This document shows positions 4,039 through 54,618 of a stretch of 64,000 nucleotides of DNA, one piece after another. Under the pieces are notes generated by a model. It was given only the letters and a program-made list of their open reading frames with translations. It was not told the DNA's origin and did not search any database. The DNA is from Bacteroidota bacterium (GTDB lineage: Bacteria; Bacteroidota; Bacteroidia; NS11-12g; UBA9320), in contig CANIKO010000001.1 in the NCBI GenBank assembly GCA_947468275.1, positions 248,001 through 312,000 on the forward strand, in the 5' to 3' direction. The number at the start of each line of letters is the position of its first letter. The first letter of the stretch is position 1. The position numbers were made by a program, and so were the translations under genes.

Positions 4039-5070
4039 TTAAGCCATTTTTATAGGCCCACTTCCCACTTGGTCATGTATAAATTTATTATTGGAGCAAT
4101 ATTGTGCAAGTTCTTTGGTTATAAAAGCCTGAACTTTGATTCTTTCAGAGGCAGGATATAGTAAATGAACATTGGCTCCTGCGTCCAAGGTGATAGTCAT
4201 ATTCAAACCGAGTTGTTTTCTGCTTTCCCAAACCTTCTGAATAATGGCTACAGTTCCGGGTTTCATTAATAAAAAGTAGGGATTGCTGCTCATCATCATG
4301 GCATGCAACATCATGGCTTCTTGCTCCACCACTTGGTTAAAAAGAATTAAATCACCTATCATTAAGGCCCTTTTTAGTGATTCAATGTTTTTATTGGCTT
4401 CTTCAAAACGTGCCGGGGCAAATGGGTGATTGTTTAACAAGGAATGACCCACCGAACTTGAGATATTTTTTGTCCCTTCGTCTACTAATAAAATTGTATC
4501 GCAAAAAGTTTTAAATATATCATGTACCTCGTCAACTTGAATGGCAAATTCATCACTACTTCCAACATACAAATTAGATTGGCCCCACATAGATAATGGT
4601 CCATGAACTGAGCGACTCGCACTTCCGCTGCCCAGCCTCGCAGCTATAGATGCTTTTTTGTAAAAATCGTCATCCGATAAAGTGTTTCCAATTTCCTTTT
4701 CCAAACTGCATAAGCAAAGAGCTAATGCCCCCATACCAGAAGCCGATGAAGCTATTCCGCTGCTGTGCGGAAAAGTGTTGGTAGTATTTATTTCGAGAAT
4801 AGAACCGGGCAAAAATGGGAAAAGACTTTCTACTTTATTAAAGAAAATCTCAAGTTTGGGTTCAAACGAAGGCATGGGCTGGCCATCGTAGGCAAAGGAT
4901 ACCAATAAAGTGCCATCATTTTCTTTAGGCTTAAAACTTAGCGTTGTAATGGTGTGGCAATTACTCAACGTAAAACTGATGGAAGGATTGGCAGGCAACT
5001 GATTTCCTTTTTTTCCCCAGTATTTAACTAAGGCAATATTCGACGGGCATTTCCATGTAACACTTGACAC
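4039..5070 (-). CDS. mvaD: Diphosphomevalonate decarboxylase
   Basis: Makes isopentenyl diphosphate from mevalonate 5-diphosphate with ATP. The 343-residue protein has the family N-terminus (PSNIALVKYWGKK, ~9-21), the NPSISFTLS segment (28-36) and the GHMP loop PHSSGIASSASG (101-112). Length is normal. The start is GTG at 5068-5070, because the frame has no better upstream ATG and a TAATTTTG promoter box sits only a few bases before it, giving a very short leader. It is the first gene of the isoprenoid cluster. Its presence indicates the mevalonate route rather than the MEP route for isoprenoids. Confidence 0.93.
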   Translation of the reverse strand: MSSVTWKCPSNIALVKYWGKKGNQLPANPSISFTLSNCHTITTLSFKPKENDGTLLVSFAYDGQPMPSFEPKLEIFFNKVESLFPFLPGSILEINTTNTFPHSSGIASSASGMGALALCLCSLEKEIGNTLSDDDFYKKASIAARLGSGSASRSVHGPLSMWGQSNLYVGSSDEFAIQVDEVHDIFKTFCDTILLVDEGTKNISSSVGHSLLNNHPFAPARFEEANKNIESLKRALMIGDLILFNQVVEQEAMMLHAMMMSSNPYFLLMKPGTVAIIQKVWESRKQLGLNMTITLDAGANVHLLYPASERIKVQAFITKELAQYCSNNKFIHDQVGSGPIKMA

Positions 5071-5075
5071 GGGGG

Positions 5076-5083
5076 CAAAATTA
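5076..5083 (-). promoter_or_regulatory. -7 promoter box upstream of mvaD
   Basis: On the minus strand TAATTTTG fits TAnnTTTG and lies about five bases before the GTG start, so the transcript is nearly leaderless. Confidence 0.45.
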
Positions 5084-5133
5084 GGAATTTAGTTGGTTTA
5101 TAGTTTGGTAAATAATAAGTAGTTTTGTTTTAG

Positions 5134-5586
5134 ATGTCGGGTACATTTTCACAAATCTATATTCAACTCGTATTTGCTGTTAAGGGTAGAAATTGTTTAA
5201 TAAGCAATTTATGGGAAGAAGAATTATATAAATACATTACAGGAATTGTTAGAAATAAAGAGCAAAAAATGCTAGCTATAAATGGAATGCCTGACCATGT
5301 CCATTTATTTATCGGTATGAAACCTTCTTGTTGCTTATCTGATCTGGTTAGAGAAATAAAAAAGTCATCAAATGATTTTATAAATGAAAAAAAGTTTACA
5401 AATTTTAAGTTTCAATGACAGGAGGGATACGGTGCATTTTCATACAGTCATTCTAATTTAGATAACGTTATAAAATATTTAATGAATCAAAAGGAGCACC
5501 ATAAACGTAAAAGTTTTAAAGATGAATATTTGGAATTTTTGCAAAAATTTGAAATTGAATTTAAGGATGAATATTTATTTAAATAG
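5134..5586 (+). pseudogene. IS200-like/RAYT transposase with an internal stop
   Basis: A Y1-type HUH transposase of 150 codons. The HUH motif is present (DHVHLF, His55 and His57). Codon 95 is TGA at 5416-5418. The same frame continues with QEGYGAFSYS, where relatives have WQEGYGAFSYS, so TGG (Trp) to TGA is the likely mutation. The candidate catalytic tyrosine (Tyr115 in VIKYLMNQKEHH) and the C-terminal helix lie after the stop, so the truncated product should be inactive. Three units of a hairpin repeat follow immediately, as expected for a REP-associated transposase. Confidence 0.85.
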
Positions 5587-5603
5587 ATAGATTGATTCTT
5601 TTT

Positions 5604-5982
5604 AATTCAAAGGATTCTGATGTTTATGTCATAACATTTTTGAAATTATCATGCGACCCCTTCGGGGTCGAAGACTAAATTGTCAGCTGTTATTATAAAC
5701 ATTTAATCCCTTCGGGATTATTAAACGCCGAAAAGAATCCATAGGATTCAAATGTTTATAGAAACAATAGTTTCTCAAAATATTCGACCCCGAAGGGGTC
5801 GAACAGCCGTATATCATTTTTTGCAATAAACATAAAATCCCTTCGGGATTTAGAATTAACGGAAGGAATCCGAAGGATTCTAAATGTTAGTAACATAATA
5901 ATCGCAGATTACATTCGACCCCTTCGGGGTCGCACAATCCAAATATTTCAAATTTCTATAAACATAAAATCCCTTTAGGATT
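5604..5982. repeat. Three tandem 131-bp three-hairpin units (REP/REPIN-like)
   Basis: Hairpin A is GAATCCnnnGGATTC (half-site 5612-5617, then 5735-5749, 5866-5880). Hairpin B is CGACCCC-nnn-GGGGTCG (5654-5670, 5785-5801, 5916-5932). Hairpin C is AATCCCttcGGGATT (5705-5719, 5836-5850, 5968-5982). B repeats exactly every 131 bases, and A and C every 131-132, while most spacer sequence has diverged. Each unit is itself an imperfect palindrome: ATGTTTATA follows A and TATAAACAT precedes C. The middle B hairpin has loop GAA where the outer two have TTC. I see no gene in 5587-6027. Confidence 0.85.
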
Positions 5983-6027
5983 AATATATTTGCTAACTGA
6001 TTCCTAATTCTCAATTCCCAATTAACC

Positions 6028-6783
6028 ATGTTCATCCTCTCCAAAATAATTAACATTTTTTTAAGCCCTTTAATCTGGGTACTAGTTAGTCTGTTTTTTG
6101 TTTGGCGCATAAAAAATGCCAAGAAGAAAAAATATCTCATTTGGGTTTGGATGATTTTCATATTTATATTAACCAATAATTTCATTGTTCATAAATGCCT
6201 TGAAAAATACGAAACCCCTTATCAGCCAATAGCTGCCGGTAAAGTTTACGATTGCGCTATTGTGTTATCCGGCGCTTCAGGATATGATAGTTTTTCACGG
6301 TCTTTACAATTTAACCAGTCAGCCGAACGCTTAACCGAGCCGGTAATACTTTATAAAAGGGGGATTGTAAAAAAACTCCTAATCAGTGGTGGTTCGGCAA
6401 GTGTGTTTCCTCCATACCTAAAGGAAGCCACTTATGTGAGGCGGTTTTGGTTGGATATGGGTGTGCCTGATAAAGATATTATTGTAGAATCGGAATCACG
6501 GAATACGATTGAGAATGCCAAATTTTCAAAGGAAATGTTGGAGAAAAAGGCAGTTGGGAAAAATGTTTTGTTAATCACTTCAGCGTTGCACATGCCCCGC
6601 AGTAAGTATATTTTTAATAACATGGGAATACTGGTAGATATTTATCCGGTTGATTTTAAAGTAAGGCGAATTGAAGAACCCAGTTATGACATCACCAATT
6701 ACATTTTACCTAAAACCGGAGCCTTGGAAGCCTGGGGTGAATTGATACATGAATGGGTAGGATTGCTGGCTGCAAAAATTTAA
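6028..6783 (+). CDS. YdcF/DUF218-family membrane-anchored protein
   Basis: A 251-residue protein with two N-terminal membrane segments (~4-24 and ~34-54) and a DUF218 domain outside. Family signatures include DCAIVLSGA near residue 76, the LLISGG segment, and the VESESRNTIENAKFS stretch. ElyC/SanA-type members act in envelope maintenance, often linked to lipid carrier recycling; the exact reaction is not established. It stands alone between the hairpin array and the monooxygenase. The ATG at 6028 gives a good membrane-anchor start. Confidence 0.85.
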   Translation: MFILSKIINIFLSPLIWVLVSLFFVWRIKNAKKKKYLIWVWMIFIFILTNNFIVHKCLEKYETPYQPIAAGKVYDCAIVLSGASGYDSFSRSLQFNQSAERLTEPVILYKRGIVKKLLISGGSASVFPPYLKEATYVRRFWLDMGVPDKDIIVESESRNTIENAKFSKEMLEKKAVGKNVLLITSALHMPRSKYIFNNMGILVDIYPVDFKVRRIEEPSYDITNYILPKTGALEAWGELIHEWVGLLAAKI

Positions 6784-6859
6784 AGCTTTTTTACAATTCA
6801 CCTTCAAATATAATCACAATCTGAGTGAACAAAACGATATTTTTCTCTCTTTAATTAAT

Positions 6860-7900
6860 ATGGAAATAGGAATTGACAGTTTTGCTGCGGCAAAACTTAG
6901 TGACGATAAACAAACTGCAGTTAACAGCAAACATTCACTGGCCGAATTGCTGGAAAGAATGGAATTTGCCGATAAAGTGGGGTTGGATATATTTGGAATA
7001 GGGGAGCACCATCGCAAGGAGTTTCTCGATTCTGCTCCCGCTCTTATTTTGGCTGCCGCTGCCGCCCGAACCAAACGTATACGGCTTACAAGTGCCGTTA
7101 CCGTTCTCAGTGCCATTGACCCGGTGAGAGCCTTTCAGGAATTTGCCACTTTGGATTTAATTTCACAAGGACGTGCCGAAATGGTGGTGGGACGAGGTTC
7201 ATTTACCGAGGCTTTTCCATTGTTTGGGTATAATCTTCACGATTATGATGCCTTGTTTACTGAAAAACTCAATCTATTGCTTACCATTCGGGATAACGAG
7301 GTGGTTAATTGGTCGGGAAAATTTCGTCCTGCACTGCACAATCAGGCCATTTACCCACGACCGGTGCAAGCTAAATTACCTATTTGGCTGGGGGTAGGAG
7401 GTACTCCTGAATCGTTTGCCCGTGCGGGCAGTTTGGGTTTGCCGCTTATGGTGGCTGTAATTGGTGGCGAAACCCACCGTTTCCGCCCTTTGGTAGACTT
7501 ATACCGCGAGGCCGGAAGACGAGCCGGCTATAAACCCGAAGAACTAAAAGTGGGATTGCATTCCTTGGGTTATGTGGCCAACACCTGCGAGGAAGCCATA
7601 GAGGAATATTATCCGGGGTATGCCGAAACCTTTACCCGAATAGGGAAGGAGCGGGGTTGGCCCCCCGTAAGCCGAGGCCGTTTTGAAGCGCAAATTGGGC
7701 CAACGGGAGCTTTGCTGGTAGGCAGCCCCGAAGAAATAGCCCAACGGATTTTGCACCACAGTGAGGCATTGGGTGGTATTTCCCGCCTTACCTTTCAAAT
7801 GGATAATGCAGGCTTATCGCATGAAAAGCTTTTAAAATCTATTGAGTTGATAGGAGAGAAGGTGAGTAAGTTGGTGAAAAATCCAATTACTTTCTCCTAA
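6860..7900 (+). CDS. Luciferase-like (LLM) flavin-dependent monooxygenase
   Basis: A TIM-barrel flavin monooxygenase of 346 residues. The N-terminal MEIGIDSF strand, the FGIGEHHR segment (~51-58), the TSAVTVLSAIDPVRAFQEFATLD stretch and a second-half LGVGGTPES loop are typical of this superfamily, which uses reduced FMN and oxygen. The substrate is unknown. The gene is clearly richer in G and C, with more C-ending codons than its neighbours, suggesting acquisition from another lineage. It lies directly upstream of the cassette-like array, but there is no attC-like site before it. Confidence 0.88.
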   Translation: MEIGIDSFAAAKLSDDKQTAVNSKHSLAELLERMEFADKVGLDIFGIGEHHRKEFLDSAPALILAAAAARTKRIRLTSAVTVLSAIDPVRAFQEFATLDLISQGRAEMVVGRGSFTEAFPLFGYNLHDYDALFTEKLNLLLTIRDNEVVNWSGKFRPALHNQAIYPRPVQAKLPIWLGVGGTPESFARAGSLGLPLMVAVIGGETHRFRPLVDLYREAGRRAGYKPEELKVGLHSLGYVANTCEEAIEEYYPGYAETFTRIGKERGWPPVSRGRFEAQIGPTGALLVGSPEEIAQRILHHSEALGGISRLTFQMDNAGLSHEKLLKSIELIGEKVSKLVKNPITFS

Positions 7901-7953
7901 AAAAAAGCGTTACTTGCAGGTGTAAAAAAAAATTACTTTATAGCGTAAAGCCA

Positions 7954-8037
7954 GCTAACGTGTGGCAGATAACCGCTATAGAGTTTCGCTTATCTACAAG
8001 TTATGCGTTACCCTGTGAAAACTGCCACACCATTGAT
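7954..8037 (+). repeat. Degenerate attC-like palindrome, site A
   Basis: GCTAAC followed by GTGTGGCAG (7960-7968), matched by CTGCCACAC (8022-8030) after a 53-base spacer. The spacer contains GTTATGCG. It resembles the three better sites downstream in layout, but the terminal bases are poorly conserved. It could mark the left edge of the array. Confidence 0.4.
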
Positions 8038-8080
8038 AATAATTTAAATTGACATAATCCATTATTAATTCAATATCTTC

Positions 8081-9211
8081 ATGCTAAAAATTTTTCTTTC
8101 ATTTGCTCTAATAATTCTTATCAATAAAAATTCTACAGCACAGATTAGAATATTTTACCGCTCACAATGTAAAGAATACCATCTCGACGAATATTATCCA
8201 CGCTATATTCAGCCAAGAGCCAAAAGCAAGGAACTTGTTCACTTTTTTTATGTTTCTGGGATTGAAAACAAAATAATTCAACAAAGAATAAATGATCAAC
8301 TCTTGTTAATTTATTGCTACCCAGAAGAGGAGTTTTTATTTACTAAGTTAGATAATCTAATAATTTTAGGCCAAAAGCCTTATACTGGTGATAGGCCTTT
8401 TTTGAACGATAACTTAGTAATAGATAGCATATACAGCGATATTGAGTTGAAGAATGGTAGATACTTTGATTTTAAAATTTCAGATACAACTGAAAGTATA
8501 ATTCATAATTTATTTTCAAATTTTGATTTAATTAATTCTCATAAAGTTTGGAGTGCTAACATAGACTGGGAAATTCTAAAAAATAAATATCTAATAATTA
8601 CAACAACAGGTATCTCAGGAATATTTTTAACTGAGGAGAGTGTTATTGCTTCAGACAGAATCCGTTATGAAAAAGGATTCAATAAGGAAAAAGATTATAC
8701 ATTCCGCAATAGTACTTATTCTTTTGTTTTTGATTTGAAAACTGGCAATCTTTTAAATTTCTGGGATTTAATTAAAGTTAAAAAACGTTATAAGTTCTTA
8801 GAATACTTTGACAAGCAAAATCGGGCTAAATATTCTAATGATAGTTTATTAGCTGATTATAATACTAATATTGAATGGCCTTCTTCATATATAGATACAA
8901 TAGTAAATAGTTACGTTCGTACTGACTTAGACATAACACTTATAAAATCAAACTATAATTTCAGGAGAACAGGTTTCTATAACCATCTCGGGACAAATCC
9001 AATGTTTAGTATATACCGAGATTCCATAAATAAAATTTCAGGTATTGTTCTTTACGGTGAAGGTAGATTAGGGCAGTTTATTGTAAATCCATTTATCTCA
9101 AATTTTGGTCGAAATAATTATTGCCATATTTATGAGACAACTACTCTTTTGCAACCCAGAGAGCTTAAAAAATTTATGAAGAAAGATCAATTTGAATTAC
9201 TCTTTAAATGA
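8081..9211 (+). CDS. Secreted protein of unknown function (cassette ORF 1)
   Basis: A 376-residue protein I do not recognise. Residues ~1-20 form a signal peptide ending near STAQ. The rest is soluble, rich in Asn, Ile, Tyr and Lys, with no repeats or membrane segments. The ATG follows the degenerate palindrome by about 43 bases, and the attC-like site B begins 42 bases after the stop, so the gene is laid out like one cassette. A+T content is higher than in the preceding monooxygenase. Confidence 0.7.
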   Translation: MLKIFLSFALIILINKNSTAQIRIFYRSQCKEYHLDEYYPRYIQPRAKSKELVHFFYVSGIENKIIQQRINDQLLLIYCYPEEEFLFTKLDNLIILGQKPYTGDRPFLNDNLVIDSIYSDIELKNGRYFDFKISDTTESIIHNLFSNFDLINSHKVWSANIDWEILKNKYLIITTTGISGIFLTEESVIASDRIRYEKGFNKEKDYTFRNSTYSFVFDLKTGNLLNFWDLIKVKKRYKFLEYFDKQNRAKYSNDSLLADYNTNIEWPSSYIDTIVNSYVRTDLDITLIKSNYNFRRTGFYNHLGTNPMFSIYRDSINKISGIVLYGEGRLGQFIVNPFISNFGRNNYCHIYETTTLLQPRELKKFMKKDQFELLFK

Positions 9212-9252
9212 TTATAGATACACAATCATATCGAAGAAACCAGAAGGGCAAA

Positions 9253-9383
9253 CGCATAACATCACCTACAAGCAAGGCTCAGTGTGCGTATCGCTGGAAA
9301 CATTTCGGTTTATCAAATTTTGTTTTTCCGTTCAGAATTTTATCTTTGGAGTCGCCCTGCTTGTAGCTGAAAAACGTTATGCG
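9253..9383 (+). repeat. attC-like imperfect palindrome, site B
   Basis: Left arm 9253-9278 starts CGCATAAC and ends CTACAAGCAAGGC. Right arm 9354-9383 starts GCCCTGCTTGTAG and ends CGTTATGCG. The arms pair with unpaired bases in the inner half. The site shares AAGGCT and GCCCT inner boxes and GCATAAC/CGTTA ends with sites C and D. Length is 131 bases. Confidence 0.7.
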
Positions 9384-9462
9384 CAACCATTTGGAGACTC
9401 TCAATTTTGAAAATTCATGATCAATTTATAAGTTCCCTTATAGCAGAAACAGCATCAAAATA

Positions 9463-10020
9463 ATGAATAGATTAATATTTCTTTTAATATCACTTGTTTT
9501 TTCAAATTTTGGTTCTAAAAGTTTTGGACAAAGAGTTTTAGAGGATAAAGTTCTATTTAGTCTAATTAGTCAATCTGATTCGGTATTTATAAATGCCAAA
9601 AAAATATTTCTGGTAAACAAAGCAATTCATTTTTATGCCCCAGAGTACATATACCCTTTACTCAAGAAAATTGATTTTGATACAACAATTTTTAATAGCA
9701 CCAAGTTTATGATTGATTCCCTTAATCGTCTAAGTAAAAATTGGAATTTTAAAAATCGTAAGTTGAAAATATACCCCAATGACAAGGCTGCCGATAAAGC
9801 TTTACGCAAACAACTTAATATTAGGCATTCTAAATCAAGATATGTAAAATTTATTAGATTTGGTTGTAGTCAAGTTCTTTATTGTAATAATTTATATCTG
9901 ATTTCCTACTGGCACGAACTAGGGGGTTTATCAAGAAGACTAAGTGTAGCCGTTTTGAAAATAAATAATGATAATAAGTTTGAGTTAATAGAGATTTATG
10001 ACCTCCCTGGAGGATCCTAG
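9463..10020 (+). CDS. Secreted protein of unknown function (cassette ORF 2)
   Basis: A 185-residue protein with a signal peptide (~1-22, ending SFGQ) and an otherwise soluble body. I see no known motif. It lies 80 bases after site B, and site C starts 21 bases after its TAG stop. The layout matches the ORFs on both sides. No promoter box is evident, so it may depend on read-through or an unrecognised promoter. Confidence 0.65.
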   Translation: MNRLIFLLISLVFSNFGSKSFGQRVLEDKVLFSLISQSDSVFINAKKIFLVNKAIHFYAPEYIYPLLKKIDFDTTIFNSTKFMIDSLNRLSKNWNFKNRKLKIYPNDKAADKALRKQLNIRHSKSRYVKFIRFGCSQVLYCNNLYLISYWHELGGLSRRLSVAVLKINNDNKFELIEIYDLPGGS

Positions 10021-10040
10021 ATATTTGAAAGAATGGCAGC

Positions 10041-10168
10041 GCATAACAGGGTACAGCCAAAAGGCTGGTTTTGCGGTTAGGAAAGTTCGTTTCCCCAAGT
10101 TACTTTTGTTCTAAGTGGAAGTTGGTCAGCTCCGAGGGCCGCCCTTCGGCTGCACCCGACCGTTATTC
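10041..10168 (+). repeat. attC-like imperfect palindrome, site C
   Basis: Left arm 10041-10065 (GCATAACAGG...CAGCCAAAAGGC) pairs with right arm 10141-10168 (GCCCTTCGGCTG...CCGTTATTC). The arms carry two extra bases on one side. The centre holds a small hairpin, GGAAA...TTTCC. Length is 128 bases. Confidence 0.7.
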
Positions 10169-10228
10169 ACCAGGCTATGACAACCCGACATTTTATTCGA
10201 AACCCAAACATTCAACATTTTTATTTTG

Positions 10229-10236
10229 TAAATTTG
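10229..10236 (+). promoter_or_regulatory. -7 promoter box inside the toxin cassette
   Basis: TAAATTTG fits TAnnTTTG and ends four bases before the PIN gene ATG. The cassette therefore carries its own promoter and probably makes a nearly leaderless mRNA. Confidence 0.5.
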
Positions 10237-10240
10237 GCAA

Positions 10241-10705
10241 ATGAAACAACGAATCTATGTTGACACTTCAGTTTTCGGAGGCTACTTTGACGAAGAGTTC
10301 GCTGAACATACAGTGCCATTGTTTGAAAGGTTGAAAAACAATGAATTTACCTTGCTATTTTCTACAGTAACTCAAGACGAACTTGAAAATGCACTAGAAA
10401 AGATAAAGAACTTTGTTAAAAGCATTAAATTAATCAACACAGAATTTCTTGACACAAGTAACGAAGCAGTAGAACTGGCAATGGAATACATTTCTGAAAA
10501 AGTTGTAGGACAGACAAGCTTTGCAGATTGTTTACATATAGCCCTTGCTACAATTAGTAGGGCTGATTTTTTGGTAAGTTGGAATTTTAAACATATTGTT
10601 AATGTGCAAAGAATCCGAGGTTACAACTCCATAAACATTAAAAACGGTTACAAACAATTAGAAATACGTTCACCAAGAGAATTTGAAAAATATGAAGACG
10701 ATTGA
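10241..10705 (+). CDS. PIN-domain ribonuclease toxin
   Basis: A 154-residue PIN nuclease, probably the toxin of a toxin-antitoxin pair. The first acidic residue is in YVDTSVF (Asp8), the second in a DELE motif (~47), the third in SFADCLHIA, and the C-terminal SWNFKHI strand matches the family. PIN toxins cut RNA using Mg2+. A close paralogue is at 41818-42279 in the mfd block. The antitoxin-like ORF overlaps its 3' end by 14 bases, so toxin precedes antitoxin, the reverse of the usual order. It sits between attC-like sites C and D. Confidence 0.85.
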   Translation: MKQRIYVDTSVFGGYFDEEFAEHTVPLFERLKNNEFTLLFSTVTQDELENALEKIKNFVKSIKLINTEFLDTSNEAVELAMEYISEKVVGQTSFADCLHIALATISRADFLVSWNFKHIVNVQRIRGYNSINIKNGYKQLEIRSPREFEKYEDD

Positions 10706-10844
10706 AAAACAATTTGATGCAGTAAACTTTATGCGTCAACAGCGAGACAGATTAAGCAAAAAATTATCAAGTATGACGAAGACTGAGATTTTAGAATATT
10801 TCAAAAACCGTAAGGCAGAAACGACAATAAAGCCCAGTGCATAA
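10692..10844 (+). CDS. Small antitoxin-like protein paired with the PIN toxin
   Basis: A 50-residue charged protein starting MKTIEKQFDAV. Its ATG lies inside the last codons of the PIN gene (14-base overlap), implying translational coupling. The helix-rich segment FDAVNFMRQQRDRL...EILEYF aligns with a small ORF in the same position beside the second PIN gene (41664-41828). That conservation is the main support that it is real. The stop TAA (10842-10844) falls within the GCATAAC end of site D. The antitoxin role is inferred from position. Confidence 0.75.
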   Translation: MKTIEKQFDAVNFMRQQRDRLSKKLSSMTKTEILEYFKNRKAETTIKPSA

Positions 10845-10966
10845 CACGGCATACCAAAAAGGCTTAGCTCGCATTTCCGTAGATAATTTTGTAGATGTTT
10901 GGAGTTTCGTCATCGCAGGATAACTTTGCGGTTGGTGTCGCCCTTCTGGTATGCCCAACCGTTAAC
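10839..10966 (+). repeat. attC-like imperfect palindrome, site D
   Basis: Left arm 10839-10863 (GCATAACACGGCATACC...AAGGC) pairs with right arm 10940-10966 (GCCCTTCTGGTATGCC...CCGTTAAC). The inner GGTGTCGCCCT resembles GGAGTCGCCCT of site B. Length is 128 bases. This is the last site before ppx. Confidence 0.7.
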
Positions 10967-10983
10967 CAACTTATTTATTGAAA

Positions 10984-11880
10984 TTACCCCAATCCACTTT
11001 TATACTCCTTATACAAGCTCCTTACCATTCCATCACTAAGCCCTGTTTGGGGAACATAAATTTTAGAACTTCCGGTTTGTTCGGCTACCTTTAAAAATAT
11101 TTCCATGGCCGGTACAATCACATCCGCTCGGTCGGGATTTAGCATGTAGGTAATCATGCGTTCGTCATTATCCATGGGTTTCATTTCATTATGTAGTTTA
11201 AGAAGTTGCTGAGTAGTTATAAATTTTTCCTTGGAGTCAGAAACCATATTAATAATTTTATTGATGTTTCCTCCCGAGCCAATAATTGGAATGTCTTTAT
11301 AAATCGGGACATTTACTTTTATCCAATTTTTTAGGTTGGCCCATTCCGACAATGAAACGCGATTGTGAAGCAACCGGATGGTGCCAATATCAAACGAGCG
11401 ACCGGCAGTTTTTTCGCCTTTATCAATCAATGAAAGTTCTGTACTTCCACCACCTACATCCATATAAATAACCTGTTTTTTTGATTTTAGGTTATTGGGT
11501 AAAAACCGGCTGGAAATAAGATCGGCTTCCTTGTCACCAGAAATTATTTCAATATTAATACCGCTGCCAATTTTTACTTTTTCCAGTATTTCGGCAGTAT
11601 TTGAAGCATCGCGCATGGCCGATGTAGCAAAGGCTTTGTAGGAAATAACCTCGTGGGCTTTCATTAAAAAAGCAAAGGCTTTCATGCAATCCGTCAAATG
11701 GGTAATATTTTCATCTGATATTTTGCCTGTAATAAAGGCATCTTCTCCCAATCGGATAGGAACTCTTACGAGCAGTGCTTTTTTAAAAACAGGTCCATTG
11801 GTGGTTTCAAACACGTTGTCGAACAACAAACGAATGGCATTGGAGCCAATATCAATGGAAGCGAATTTAAGGTATTTCAA
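10984..11880 (-). CDS. ppx: Ppx/GppA exopolyphosphatase
   Basis: Removes terminal phosphate from polyphosphate, or from pppGpp in some members. The 298-residue protein matches the N-terminal two-domain core of the family. Phosphate-binding motifs of the ASKHA fold are visible: DIGSNAIRLL (~9-18), ATSAMRDASN (~85-94), MDVGGGSTEL and the later GSGGNINK loop. It lacks the extra C-terminal HD-like domain of E. coli PPX, as is common in Bacteroidota. Its start overlaps the end of ppk1 by 14 bases, giving a ppk1-ppx operon that makes and degrades polyphosphate. Confidence 0.9.
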   Translation of the reverse strand: MKYLKFASIDIGSNAIRLLFDNVFETTNGPVFKKALLVRVPIRLGEDAFITGKISDENITHLTDCMKAFAFLMKAHEVISYKAFATSAMRDASNTAEILEKVKIGSGINIEIISGDKEADLISSRFLPNNLKSKKQVIYMDVGGGSTELSLIDKGEKTAGRSFDIGTIRLLHNRVSLSEWANLKNWIKVNVPIYKDIPIIGSGGNINKIINMVSDSKEKFITTQQLLKLHNEMKPMDNDERMITYMLNPDRADVIVPAMEIFLKVAEQTGSSKIYVPQTGLSDGMVRSLYKEYKSGLG

Positions 11881-13939
11881 TGGCGTCGGGTCTCGACTTT
11901 AAATAGTCGAAGAAATCCGATTGCGAACGTACCATTTTATCTTCACAGGTTATAAACCTGTTATCCATAGCGGCATTATGTTCTCTCGCCTTTTGGTTAT
12001 CACTCATTATAATATTCAGATAATTATCAATTTCTTTTTTGATAGATTTATCATAAATGGGGCAGGCCACTTCAATTCGGTAATCTAAATTTCGCATCAT
12101 CCAATCAGCTGATGATATGAAATACAAAGGTTTGCCTTCGTTGCCAAAAACAAAAATTCGGGAATGTTCCAAAAAACGGTCCACAATACATGTGGCTCTT
12201 ATGTTTTCACTCAACCCTTTTATTCCCGGTATCAGGCAACAAATTCCTCTTACAAATAAATCAATTTTAACTCCTGCATTGCTGGCTTCGTATAGGTGGT
12301 CGATTAAATTTTCATCTACCAAATTATTGAGTTTTATTCGTATAAACGCTTCCTTGCTATTTAGTGCCGCTTGGGTTTCGTTTTGAATAAGTTTAACTAG
12401 TTTTTTTCGCATGCCCACTGGTGACACCAAGAGATGCTTAAATGTATGTGGTAAATAAGGCTTTTCTATCATATGAAAAACTTTGTTTACCTCAGTGGTT
12501 ATTTGAGGGTCAGCTGTAAATAAAGCTACATCTGTATAAATTTTTGAAGTAGTTTCATTGAAATTACCTGTGGCCACATATGCAAAATGATGCTCCTTGT
12601 TTTTTACAACGCGTGTTATAGCAACTAATTTGGCGTGGGTTTTAAGTCCACTAAGTCCAAAAATTAGTTTAACACCGGCATCGGTTAATTTTTTACTCCA
12701 ATTAAGATTAGCTTCTTCATCAAATCTTGCCTGAAGTTCCAATATTGCTGTAACGCTCTTACCATTTCTTACAGCATTAATCAAGGCATTTATTATCATT
12801 GAATTTTTTGCCAAGCGGTAAAGCGTAATTTTTATAGATTTTACGGTTGGGTCAATGGCTGCTTCCCGCAAAAAATGAATTACATAATCAAAAGGCTGAT
12901 ACGGAAAAAAAAGTAAATGGTCTTTTACCGAAATAGCGTGAAGCATGCTCATCGATTTTTCAAACGGAGGATGAGTAATTCGCTTCACAGGCGGATATTC
13001 CAATTGTGGTTCACCTACGTTTGGGAATTTTATGAAGTCTTTAAAATTATGATACTTACCACCTGGAATTATATTTTCATTATCGGATATTTTTAGTTTT
13101 TTTAGCAAAACATTCAGATACGATTTAGGCATGTTTTCATCATAAATAAATCTTACCGGTTCCGCCTTTTTGCGGTTTTCAAGGCTTTTTTCCATTTGCT
13201 CAAAAAAACTGTCTGATAGGTCTCCTTCAATTGTTAATTCAGCATCGCGGGTAAGTTTAATAATATACGATTCAAAATTATCAGGTTCAAATAATTGGAA
13301 TATTTCAGGTAGGTTCAATCGTATCACATCATCTAGATAGATGATATATTTTTTGGCTCCTTGATTGGGTAATAATACAAATCTTGAAATTATATCGGTG
13401 GGAATTTCTATAAGTGCAAATAGCTTTTGCTTTGTTTTTTTTACAGTGAATTTTACAAAAAGATAAATACTTTTATCCCTTAAACTTGGAGTAGGTGAAG
13501 CTTCGTTTAAAATTATAGGAACCAACAACGGCTGAACTTTTTCTTTAAAAAACTCATGAAGATGGCCATAGTGTTTCTTAATGATTTTCTTTTCGTCTAA
13601 AATAAAAATATTTTTAACTTCTAGCTCCTTTTGAATCTGCTTGTAGGTTTTGTCAAATTCTTTTTGAAGCGTAATAACCTTATGGTGGATATCCTTGAGA
13701 ACTGCTTGATTGAAAGATTGATTGGGTTTTGAGCCTTTTTTTTCAAGACTTATCAAGCGCCTAATTGTGGCAACCCTAACCCTAAAAAACTCGTCCAAAT
13801 TATTAGAAAATATGGCTAAAAATTTCATGCGTTCAACCAACGGGACAGTGCTATCGGCAGCTTCCTGCAATACACGGGCATTAAATGCGAGCCAACTTAA
13901 TTCGCGGTTGAGGTATTTGTCTTTCACAGTTTCAAACAT
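11867..13939 (-). CDS. ppk1: Polyphosphate kinase 1
   Basis: Transfers the ATP gamma-phosphate reversibly to polyphosphate. The 690-residue length is normal. The N domain starts with YLNRELSWLAFNARVL (~9-24). The head domain and two phospholipase D-like C domains follow. The catalytic histidine lies in the GLKTHAKL segment, with the TGNFNE motif just after it, and a second histidine region (DRFLEHSRIF) lies in the last domain. It is the first gene of the operon with ppx and is read on the minus strand from 13939. Confidence 0.95.
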   Translation of the reverse strand: MFETVKDKYLNRELSWLAFNARVLQEAADSTVPLVERMKFLAIFSNNLDEFFRVRVATIRRLISLEKKGSKPNQSFNQAVLKDIHHKVITLQKEFDKTYKQIQKELEVKNIFILDEKKIIKKHYGHLHEFFKEKVQPLLVPIILNEASPTPSLRDKSIYLFVKFTVKKTKQKLFALIEIPTDIISRFVLLPNQGAKKYIIYLDDVIRLNLPEIFQLFEPDNFESYIIKLTRDAELTIEGDLSDSFFEQMEKSLENRKKAEPVRFIYDENMPKSYLNVLLKKLKISDNENIIPGGKYHNFKDFIKFPNVGEPQLEYPPVKRITHPPFEKSMSMLHAISVKDHLLFFPYQPFDYVIHFLREAAIDPTVKSIKITLYRLAKNSMIINALINAVRNGKSVTAILELQARFDEEANLNWSKKLTDAGVKLIFGLSGLKTHAKLVAITRVVKNKEHHFAYVATGNFNETTSKIYTDVALFTADPQITTEVNKVFHMIEKPYLPHTFKHLLVSPVGMRKKLVKLIQNETQAALNSKEAFIRIKLNNLVDENLIDHLYEASNAGVKIDLFVRGICCLIPGIKGLSENIRATCIVDRFLEHSRIFVFGNEGKPLYFISSADWMMRNLDYRIEVACPIYDKSIKKEIDNYLNIIMSDNQKAREHNAAMDNRFITCEDKMVRSQSDFFDYLKSRPDAIEIP

Positions 13940-41663: not shown

Positions 41664-41828
41664 TTATTTCGTTCCTTTCCTGAACTCTTCGCTACCTTTT
41701 CTTAGATATTCTTTCATTTGTTCAAAATTCATATCAGCCATTTCTTCTGATATTTTTTCCTTAATTGCTCTAAAGGTTTTAACCGTATCAAATGATTTGG
41801 TTTTTTGTATAACTTTTTTAGTCTTCAT
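41664..41828 (-). CDS. Small antitoxin-like protein paired with the second PIN toxin
   Basis: A 54-residue charged protein starting MKTKKVIQKTKSFDTV. Its ATG lies inside the end of the PIN gene (11-base overlap). The FDTVKTFRAIKEKI...EQMKEYLRK segment aligns with the small ORF at 10692-10844. Two copies with the same position and start make a real partner likely. Antitoxin function is inferred. Confidence 0.75.
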   Translation of the reverse strand: MKTKKVIQKTKSFDTVKTFRAIKEKISEEMADMNFEQMKEYLRKGSEEFRKGTK

Positions 41829-42279
41829 ATTTTAAAATTTCCTGAGGTGACCTAATCTCTAATTGAATATAACCATTGCTTAAATTTATGCCATTATAAC
41901 CTCTTATTCTATAAACATTCACAATGTGTTTAAAATTCCAGCTTATGAGTATATCTGCTTTGTAAATAGTGGCAGTTGCAATATGAATGCAATCATCCAA
42001 ACTTGTTTTTCCTACTACATTCGCATCTATATATTTTTTTGCCAAAGCCAGTGCCTCATCGTTTACAACGCAGAATTCAAGATTTTCTTTTGGTAACGAT
42101 TGAAAATAATCTTTAACCCTCTCAGGTGCCTTTATCAATTCTCGTTCTAATAAATCAGAATAAACACAAGTAATTTGCCCAAGTTTTACCCTTTCAAATA
42201 ATTGGAAACTTGCTTCTTCAAATTCTTCATCGAATACACCTCCAAAAACTGAAGTATCAAAATATAATCGCGGTTTCAA
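41818..42279 (-). CDS. PIN-domain ribonuclease toxin, second copy
   Basis: A 153-residue PIN nuclease closely related to that at 10241-10705 over its whole length (YFDTSVFGG..FDEEF at the N-terminus, SWNFKHIVN..RIRGYN..N near the C-terminus, roughly half of residues identical by eye). Acidic active-site residues are in YFDTS (Asp8), an ERELI motif and SLDDCIHIA. The antitoxin-like gene follows and overlaps. The module is flanked by two mfd-tail remnants in direct orientation. Confidence 0.86.
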   Translation of the reverse strand: MKPRLYFDTSVFGGVFDEEFEEASFQLFERVKLGQITCVYSDLLERELIKAPERVKDYFQSLPKENLEFCVVNDEALALAKKYIDANVVGKTSLDDCIHIATATIYKADILISWNFKHIVNVYRIRGYNGINLSNGYIQLEIRSPQEILKYED

Positions 42280-53688: not shown

Positions 53689-53713
53689 TTATTTAAAAAT
53701 TTTGATATAACTT

Positions 53714-53745
53714 GCCCATGCTAATTTAGTATGGGCTTTTTTTTT
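53714..53745 (+). terminator. rpsU terminator overlapping the xerC start
   Basis: GCCCATGCTA pairs with TAGTATGGGC (one mismatch) around a three-base loop, followed by nine T. The xerC ATG (53731) lies in the right arm, so the hairpin both ends rpsU transcripts and can hide the xerC start on read-through mRNA. Confidence 0.8.
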
Positions 53746-54618
53746 ACAGATCAATTTATAGAATATCTTCAGTACCAACGGAAATTTAGTCCGAATACCT
53801 TGCTTGCCTATAAAAGTGATTTATTAGAATTTATTAATTTTAGTATAGAGCGATTTGAAATCCAAAAATCGGAGGCCATAAAAAATGACATGGTTCGGTC
53901 TTGGGTAAGTGAGTTGATCGGAAATGGCTTAGAGCCTGTTTCAGTGCGACGCAAAGTTTCAACCCTTCGTTCCTATTTTAAATATCTCCAAAAAGAGAAC
54001 ATTTTAAAAAAGAGTCCTTTAACGAATATCCCTCAATTAAAACTTTCAAAAAAACTTCCAATAGTTTTAAGTAACGAATCTATCGATTCGATATTTGATA
54101 ATTTATCTCTAGATGCTTCCTATTTAGAAAGTTTAAATCACATAATAATATGTATTCTTTATGGTACAGGTATCAGAAGGGCTGAATTAATAGGTTTGAA
54201 AGCCTCTAATGTTGATCTTGAGCAAAGGCAAATTAAGGTTTTAGGGAAACGCAGTAAAGAACGAATAGTTCCAATTACTTTTGAATTGGCCGAACAAATT
54301 TCAGCATTTATCGAAATCAAAAGGAAAACAGGCATTGTTTCTGAAAATCTTGTCGTTACTATTAAAAATGAAATATTATATCCCGGTTATATTTATAATG
54401 TGGTAAAAAAAACTCTAACTTTGCACAAGGTAAATGGCAAGCGAAGCCCTCATATATTGAGGCATACCTATGCGACACGTCTGCTTCAAAATGGTGCAGA
54501 ATTATTAAGTGTTAAAGAATTATTAGGGCATTCAAGTCTAGCTTCTACTCAAGTTTATACCCATGTTAATATTGAAGACCTCAAAAGGATCTATAAAAAA
54601 AATCATCCCAAGCAATAA
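53731..54618 (+). CDS. xerC: Tyrosine recombinase XerC-like
   Basis: A 295-residue site-specific recombinase, presumably for chromosome dimer resolution. The N-terminal SAM-like domain is ~1-90. Catalytic residues are in GTGIRRAEL (Arg150/151), the beta-hairpin Lys in LGKRSKE, SPHILRHTYATRLL (His and Arg, ~243-256), HSS, and VYTHV (Tyr ~281). It sits between rpsU and hpf. It is not an integron integrase: it has no additional alpha2 insertion that I can see. Confidence 0.9.
   Translation: MGFFFTDQFIEYLQYQRKFSPNTLLAYKSDLLEFINFSIERFEIQKSEAIKNDMVRSWVSELIGNGLEPVSVRRKVSTLRSYFKYLQKENILKKSPLTNIPQLKLSKKLPIVLSNESIDSIFDNLSLDASYLESLNHIIICILYGTGIRRAELIGLKASNVDLEQRQIKVLGKRSKERIVPITFELAEQISAFIEIKRKTGIVSENLVVTIKNEILYPGYIYNVVKKTLTLHKVNGKRSPHILRHTYATRLLQNGAELLSVKELLGHSSLASTQVYTHVNIEDLKRIYKKNHPKQ

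Follow-up and report, generated by a model that had tools for sequence, protein, structure and literature searches.

We analysed a 64,000-nucleotide stretch (hereafter the window) from a Bacteroidota bacterium (GenBank assembly GCA_947468275.1, contig CANIKO010000001.1, positions 248,001 to 312,000), in which three gene cassettes lie in tandem on the + strand at 8000-10960, each closed by a hairpin site of about 130 bp. Judged from its sequence, this is very probably an integrase-less three-cassette array of an integron-like system of Bacteroidota, which is widespread in the phylum and apparently undescribed. An attI-like insertion point (7986..8002, +), consisting of TCGCTTATCTACAA followed by GTT with its G at 8000, heads the array. 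Cassette 1 (8000..9375, +) comprises an open reading frame (ORF) of 376 aa at 8081-9211 and site B (9248..9388, +; left box 9248-9260, stem arms 9262-9279 and 9353-9370, right GTT at 9376). Cassette 2 (9376..10161, +) carries an ORF of 185 aa at 9463-10020 and site C (10035..10174, +; left box 10035-10047, stem arms 10049-10066 and 10140-10157, GTT at 10162). Cassette 3 (10162..10960, +) holds a PIN-domain ORF at 10241-10705 (PF01850, E 1.6e-8), a small ORF at 10683-10844 and site D (10833..10973, +; left box 10833-10845, stem arms 10847-10864 and 10939-10956, GTT at 10961). We infer that the two ORFs of cassette 3 are likely a toxin-antitoxin pair. When the cassette ORFs of the window were compared with Pfam, PADLOC and NCBIfam, PIN domains alone exceeded a cut-off; the 376-aa ORF gave no match at the limits used, and the 185-aa ORF no family match above cut-off. 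The small ORF ends with a stop codon (10842-10844) inside the left box (GCATAAC) of site D.

The original prediction, made from the letters of the window alone, had placed palindromes at 9253-9383, 10041-10168 and 10839-10966 on the + strand, with an ORF or ORF pair in front of each, and these positions and the strand were right. What it took for a degenerate "site A" at the head of the array is rather the start of cassette 1, GTTATGCGTTACC at 8000, which is nearly complementary to GCAAACGCATAAC, the left box of the cassette's own site B. Among the boxes that it listed as shared, AAGGC and GCCCT are merely local, whereas AACA, CGTT and an 18-bp stem are shared more widely; the pattern AAGGC..GCCCT..CGTTA had three matches in the 3.3-Mb genome, namely sites B, C and D, with none on the reverse strand and none for a backwards control. 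Its statement that the window lacks an integrase holds for cassette integrases, though a Xer-type tyrosine recombinase of 295 aa, outside the cassette-integrase family, is encoded at about 53700-54600 (+). A search of 5000-13000 for an Rfam identity of the sites, at E up to 1, gave a lone match to a microRNA family (E 0.95), far under the cut-off and off-site, which was rejected.

As the original prediction had proposed, a covariance model was built from sites B, C and D (R1) and used to search the genome and other Bacteroidota. A broader model (R2) was made of 28 sites; B, C and D are among its own rows and score 84.0, 68.0 and 59.4 bits with it, respectively. A structural scanner was also used, which requires AACA, an ungapped 18-bp stem and MMCGTT and credits bottom-strand wobbles. 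In the same genome R1 found three further sites, all on contig C12 (E 1e-4 to 1e-6), and a fourth C12 site emerged when that stretch was searched with less other sequence. All four are + strand sites that follow the gene of a 360-aa tyrosine recombinase (L047 3139-4221), the kind of neighbour that the prediction had suggested looking for beside other arrays. The C12 cassettes carry an esterase with a secretion tail, a Shango system, small unknown ORFs and a carboxylesterase. The complete Shango anti-phage system (SngA E 1.1e-46, SngB 5.5e-168, SngC 3.4e-216) forms one cassette between two sites (L047 5846-11261, G000:C12). A second integrase, 54% identical to that of C12, is encoded near the end of contig C7; integrases of the cassette family occur in the genome only on C7 and C12, and none on the contig of the window array. 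With R2 the genome has 15 sites on 9 contigs, several of which carry a solitary site.

The sites extend well beyond this genome. The scanner found 61 sites in 849 kb (the window plus fetched loci) and none in one Markov shuffle. Among 58 genomes (this one and its relatives), 42 have sites with R2 and 24 with R1. With integrases called at a score of at least 190 bits, sites occurred in 25 of the 26 genomes with an integrase (mean 11.6) and in 17 of the 32 without (mean 2.1; Mann-Whitney p 1.9e-6). A phylum sample of 395 Bacteroidota genomes was searched for sites at E 1e-4, with only 8 candidates scored per genome, and for integrases at E 1e-60. Results showed sites in 182 genomes and an integrase in 127: 104 had both, 23 an integrase only, 78 sites only and 190 neither (Fisher p 1.8e-23). 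Named contigs with an integrase belong to Flavobacterium fluviatile, F. hibisci, F. ajazii, F. pectinovorum, F. salmonis, F. sedimenticola and F. limi and to an uncultured Olleya; a Chryseobacterium plasmid also encodes one, annotated "site-specific tyrosine recombinase/integron integrase". R2 sites are present in every named integrase locus except that of F. fluviatile, a 5.5-kb contig, and in F. sedimenticola 14 consecutive sites follow the integrase (L129 10001-11032). No description of such a system was found in the titles and abstract openings of a literature search, outside which lay preprints and most subscription papers.

This co-occurrence also bears on modules of the Xer-dif kind, which chromosomal XerC/XerD would move at dif-like sites. 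The recombinases are indeed relatives of Xer, and a likely toxin-antitoxin cargo would suit such modules. However, the sites are hairpins of about 130 bp, and the recombinases that co-occur with them form a separate family, whose scores far exceed those of Xer-type proteins in these genomes. Judged from the sites and the recombinases, with no search aimed at dif itself, this explanation is highly improbable.

The ends of 58 cassettes bounded by two sites were compared over the ten positions beyond GTT, using 95 of 106 sites; own-end pairing had played no role in site selection. The left box of a site agreed with the start of its own cassette at a mean of 7.81 of 10 positions, against 3.60 of 10 for the start of the next cassette, and shuffled starts gave a mean of 3.79 with a maximum of 4.59 in 10,000. 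The own start was the better in 55 of the 58. In all 58 cassettes position 11 of the start is an A, which in 49 stands opposite a left-box C, a G.T pair in the bottom strand. A first pass with other site calls, on 35 cassettes, had found the own start better in 31, worse in 3 and equal in 1. Within the window, the starts at 8000, 9376 and 10162 pair with their own left boxes ending at 9260, 10047 and 10845; beyond GTT the agreement is 8/10 for cassette 2 (next start 4/10) and 7/10 for cassette 3 (next start 3/10). Such complementarity of the left box with the start of its own cassette is as expected for units that move as circles, with the crossover at GTT. The longest ORF runs forward in 49 of the 58 cassettes and in reverse in 4, and 5 have none of at least 60 aa.

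These results indicate that the sites define cassette ends, which the original prediction had set against palindromes lying at random around the genome, and its view of integron-like cassettes with attC-like sites is borne out both by own-end pairing and by arrays of the same type beside a recombinase. Dispersed palindromic repeats (REP-like or terminators), without cassette recombination, would explain palindromes behind genes and solitary sites on several contigs, and the window holds a possible REP-type transposase remnant, identified by eye, at 5134-5418. Own-end pairing contradicts this explanation, because copy-and-paste would not pair the 5' flank of a gene with its own 3' repeat. It is also at odds with arrays that stand in tandem behind a single recombinase family and with homology that stops at or just past GTT (see below), and we regard it as scarcely credible.

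A left-hand AACA and a right-hand CGTT are widely shared by the sites, as is an 18-bp stem that contains a single fixed A.C pair, and the spacers mostly measure 1 and 5 nt. Site picking had partly demanded AACA and CGTT, and some R1-found sites depart from CGTT. Across the 28 sites, 82.3% of the stem cells are paired vs 58.9% in shuffles, 142 cells are double-changed vs 50.3, and covariation is 0.506 vs 0.149. None of 500 shuffles was as high in any of these three measures, and slid versions were far lower in pairing and covariation. One stem pair (columns 22-117) is non-standard in 27 of the 28 rows, being A.C in the top strand and G.T in the bottom strand. In sites B, C and D, several top-strand mismatches are likewise A.C and become G.T wobbles in the bottom strand, and in 42 R1-found sites there were 72 bottom-only and 19 top-only wobbles. 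The bottom strand, whose folding the original prediction had proposed to check, was better than the top in 45 of 58 sites in array form and in 51 of 58 when the site was reconstituted as in a circle; the circle-form bottom strand folded better than the array form in 52 of 58. For site B, shuffle z-scores were -3.28 for the bottom strand vs -1.20 for the top. Among 92 sites with the stem, the ungapped stem was best in 85, a left-arm bulge was favoured in 3 and a right-arm bulge in 4, although the models were trained on ungapped stems and bulged sites may be under-found. With spacers searched at 1-3 and 3-7 nt, the 1/5 combination occurred in 49 of the 92 sites, and the right spacer was the longer in 91. 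The terminal loops of 20 representative sites (e.g. L047 5508-5639) contain degenerate direct repeats that recur about every 18.5 nt (z 5.4 at lag 18 and 9.3 at lag 37).

In the fetched integrase loci, the scanner placed 41 sites downstream of the integrase on the same strand, none upstream on the same strand and 5 on the opposite strand; these 5 are all upstream by coordinates, which is a divergent layout. Among the matches listed in the phylum sample (one contig, within 50 kb), 41 were co-directional and downstream, 7 divergent and none other. The divergent layout, which resembles that of classical integrons, was thus in the minority (L111, L112, L118 and L119; phylum genomes G064, G076, G095, G253 and G446). 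When the first cassette is located by the own-start rule, it begins 73-159 bp behind the integrase in 14 of the 20 loci that have a site downstream; in 5 others the best start lies at a greater distance, and in L131 of F. limi none fits. In that species the integrase (L131 10001-11040) is frameshifted near its start, yet 10 R2 sites follow it. The stretch before the first cassette carries a T/A-rich, TATAA-like motif. A weight matrix made from 14 stretches behind integrases, with that of C7 held out, gave the held-out C7 stretch a score of 12.4. The window point at 7986..8002 resembles the attI of the C12 integrase.

Comparison of related loci placed the loss of homology at or just past the attI GTT. 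In F. ajazii, F. pectinovorum and F. salmonis, the stretches upstream of the integrase are 86-91% identical; behind it they align over about 110-130 nt at 83-92% identity, and the alignment stops at the attI GTT or no more than about 15 nt past it. Later matches have the size of sites, about 95-150 nt. The upstream flanks of F. hibisci and F. limi are common with the others, yet BLAST gave no match right behind their integrases. Three congeners of the window's genome (G003, G005 and G004) show 89% identity over the 80 nt that follow the integrase, and the match ends at GTT; the C7 stretch has GGGTATAAACAAGTTA in common with them, and the flanks upstream of these congeners' integrases gave no match. 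Some contigs end at such points (L093 position 1 and L105 position 13870): one of G004 exactly at the attI GTT, and one of G011 at the GTTA of a site. Mixed first cassettes within a population could perhaps produce such ends; repeats can do likewise.

The integrases of the family are mostly 280-400 aa long. Of the catalytic residues, R, K, H and H do not vary among 26 members, and the second R and the Y hardly do. Against TIGR02249 (IntI) the two integrases of this genome scored 206.3 and 207.2 bits, under the curated cut-off of 265, and no protein of the whole genome exceeded that cut-off. With NF040815 ("tyrosine recombinase/integron integrase", cut-off 220) they reached 230.3 and 223.6 bits, and the genome's own XerD-type protein also passed, at 229.6. 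The IntI-specific insertion, present in IntI1, is absent in all 26 aligned members, which have 21 residues where IntI4 has 64. In a tree, XerD and the Xer-type protein of the window split from the rest (99/99), and the long branches of IntI1 and two further outgroups fall among those of the family. A structure model of the whole integrase (predicted template-modelling score 0.52) gave the expected Xer and IntI4 matches. Many members have an extra N-terminal domain of about 60 aa with the motif K-W-S-Q-T-L-K-x-W (e.g. L129 10001-10204), which is predicted to fold as beta-beta-alpha-beta-beta-alpha (mean pLDDT, the predicted local distance difference test, 80.5). HARP (PF07443) matched 4 of 24 N-termini weakly at E up to 1 (best 0.0021, 18 bits, cut-off 25), and DUF5710 matched 9 of 24 (best E 3.2e-4). 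The first Foldseek match of the domain was the SMARCAL1 HARP domain 4o66, at a weak E of 0.28, and HARP was not among the 50 matches listed by VIA-align (best Z 4.7). The HARP likeness is a lead only.

The system has much in common with classical integrons such as class 1 and the Vibrio cholerae superintegron: a recombinase beside the insertion point, tandem cassettes in one orientation, sites of a size like that of the V. cholerae repeats, a better bottom-strand fold, AAC and GTT ends, an unequal unpaired spacer, and defence and likely toxin-antitoxin cargo. Classical attC sites have the outer boxes RYYYAAC and GTTRRRY and an outer stem of 7 bp. In contrast, the outer stem here is of 13 bp with a fixed wobble, the two box patterns fit only 3 of 95 and 8 of 94 sites, the spacer is often 1/5, extrahelical bases are rarely favoured, the integrase mostly runs co-directionally with the cassettes, often has an extra N-terminal domain, and lacks the IntI-specific insertion. 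That insertion has been reported as necessary for activity (PMC9668308; PMC8138268), and extrahelical bases on the R''-L'' arm as "common to all known" attC (PMC2727003). As a yardstick, a variant of the bulge test with 14-bp stems and classical boxes required was applied to the class 1 integron L171: the left-arm bulge was best in both classical attC found, at 12.5 vs 5.0 and 11.0, respectively, for the best ungapped stem, and 2 other gaps yielded no attC. R2 found no site in the class 1 integron stretch.

These comparisons also test whether the arrays are diverged classical integrons, with a true IntI and attC sites under the thresholds of standard tools. The overall logic is the same, TIGR02249 reaches 206 bits, IntI4 is among the closest solved structures, and the C-terminal SPLDKL resembles SPLSRL of IntI4. 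A published integron-like subgroup without full conservation of the insertion (PMC8138268) would also agree with it. With the insertion missing in 26 of 26 members, a score below the curated 265 bits, the poor box fit, a left-arm bulge in 3 of 92 sites where both classical attC prefer one, and no class 1 integron site found by R2, we consider this explanation unlikely. The system works like an integron, yet it fails the tests of IntI cut-off, insertion, outer boxes and extrahelical bases. The original prediction had hesitated between a diverged CALIN (cluster of attC sites lacking an integron-integrase) and a different cassette system; that doubt was justified, and the tests favour a different system. 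CALINs are defined by at least 2 sites within 4 kb and no integrase beside them (PMC9668308). The window array has this form, with sites at 9254, 10041 and 10839 and the family integrase not on the contig, but its sites are of another type and it has an attI-like start.

Two published groups come close. In Treponema integrons the integrase is transcribed towards attI, in the direction of the cassettes, and the loci carry intI (PMC3607928); the layout is the same as here, whereas the recombinase of the present system is not IntI by the tests run. The "integron-like" subgroup of Smyshlyaev et al. 2021, likened here by its published description, may include the cassette-integrase family. In that paper the insertion is "not fully conserved" in the subgroup, yet essential for integron function, and its subgroup section describes no cassettes or sites for members without the insertion (PMC8138268).

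Complete loci consist of a tyrosine recombinase, an attI-like ..TATAAnTA|GTT behind it, and cassettes in tandem, in each of which a gene or small operon is followed by a site of about 130 bp. In the mechanism that we propose, the bottom strand of a site would fold into a hairpin whose outer stem has 13 bp (G.T wobble at its position 11) and whose inner stem has 18 bp (G.T at its position 14), with an unequal internal loop between them, usually of 1 and 5 nt, and a terminal loop of about 76 nt. The recombinase would bind the folded, single-stranded site, cut it and join it at GTT to attI or to a second site. Once excised, a cassette would be a circle in which its own first bases complete the site, and the C12 or C7 integrase would presumably act in trans on the window array.

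Several results weigh against this reading. The recombination itself is deduced from sequence comparison. In the phylum sample, no integrase reached E 1e-60 in 78 of the 182 genomes with sites, and sites went undetected in 23 of the 127 with an integrase. In the end test, 11 of the 106 sites were dropped for unclear AAC/GTT anchors, the next start was better in 2 of the 58 cassettes with a tie in 1, and BLAST among the 58 cassettes found no stretch of more than 220 bp common to the fetched arrays. Two weaker covariation measures were closer to shuffles: 18 pairs with double changes vs 15.0 (4/500 as high) and 38 pair types vs 33.8 (40/500 as high). Covariation, strand bias and lack of bulges are not fully independent tests, because the scanner picked most R2 rows. 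Site C folds only marginally better in the bottom strand (z -1.95 vs -1.86), and for site D alone, in array form, neither strand folds better than shuffles. The F. limi locus with the frameshifted integrase has no recognisable attI start. Finally, window position 8000 scores 7.5 in the attI matrix, rank 8 of 2305 window GTT positions, and one unrelated window position scores 12.7, as high as the C7 attI; the attI-like score at 8000 is therefore suggestive only. Linkage, co-occurrence and own-end pairing nevertheless give strong support to an integron-like system.

Whether the window array is still active is a separate matter. It might be a dead relic no longer served by an integrase, as the lack of an adjacent integrase and the scores of sites C and D, below those of the C12 sites with R2, would allow. 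Its hairpins, AAC and GTT ends and own-end pairing are intact, however, and the genome has two open-frame integrases. The comparison with close relatives, also proposed with the original prediction, located the right flank of the array in 2 of 6 congeners (G004 and G005), and the array is absent from both. The luciferase-like and Ppx genes are both present in G004, where the aligned flanks lie about 880 bp apart and an unrelated ORF of 219 aa occurs, and G005 has other genes at the locus; R2 found no site in either stretch. The genus thus does not carry the array as a fixed feature, contrary to what the prediction had named as speaking against it. A dead relic is possible but doubtful.

Integrons are on record from Bacteroidota, and for Bacteroidetes proper IntegronFinder 2.0 names a single complete integron, that of Salinibacter ruber (PMC9024848; PMC9668308). 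More broadly, Bacteroidota probably have their own phylum-wide counterpart of the integron, with insertion-less recombinases, strand choice by fixed G.T wobbles and the unequal loop in place of extrahelical bases, a 13-nt start that completes the site only in the circle, and, in many of the recombinases, an N-terminal domain that may read folded DNA. Such a reservoir would have been missed because tools seek IntI and RYYYAAC/GTTRRRY. If this is true, nearly half of the sampled Bacteroidota species (182/395) carry gene-capture sites, and the cassette reservoir gains a whole three-gene anti-phage Shango system and a likely toxin-antitoxin pair. It would also question whether the IntI-specific insertion and extrahelical bases are necessary for folded-site recombination, and offer a ready comparison. 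Cultured Flavobacterium hosts make the system testable.

Relatives of the cassette 3 PIN gene were found in 39 of the 395 genomes, this one included. At the 30 loci examined, a site adjoins the gene in this genome, L162 and L155, and a partial one lies further off in L144. The gene is mostly not cassette-borne, since 26 of the 29 other loci have no site within about 1.5 kb. A second PIN-domain ORF of the window (41821-42279, -) is 57% identical to that of cassette 3, with no site found nearby by R2 in the window. The short ORF at 5134-5418 (+) resembles a remnant of a REP-type Y1 (IS200-like) transposase by eye only. Outside the array, the left flank (6860..7900, +) is a luciferase-like monooxygenase gene (PF00296) that is also present in the array-less congener G004, and the right flank (10984..11880, -) is a Ppx/GppA phosphatase gene (PF02541) that is present without the array in G004 and G005.

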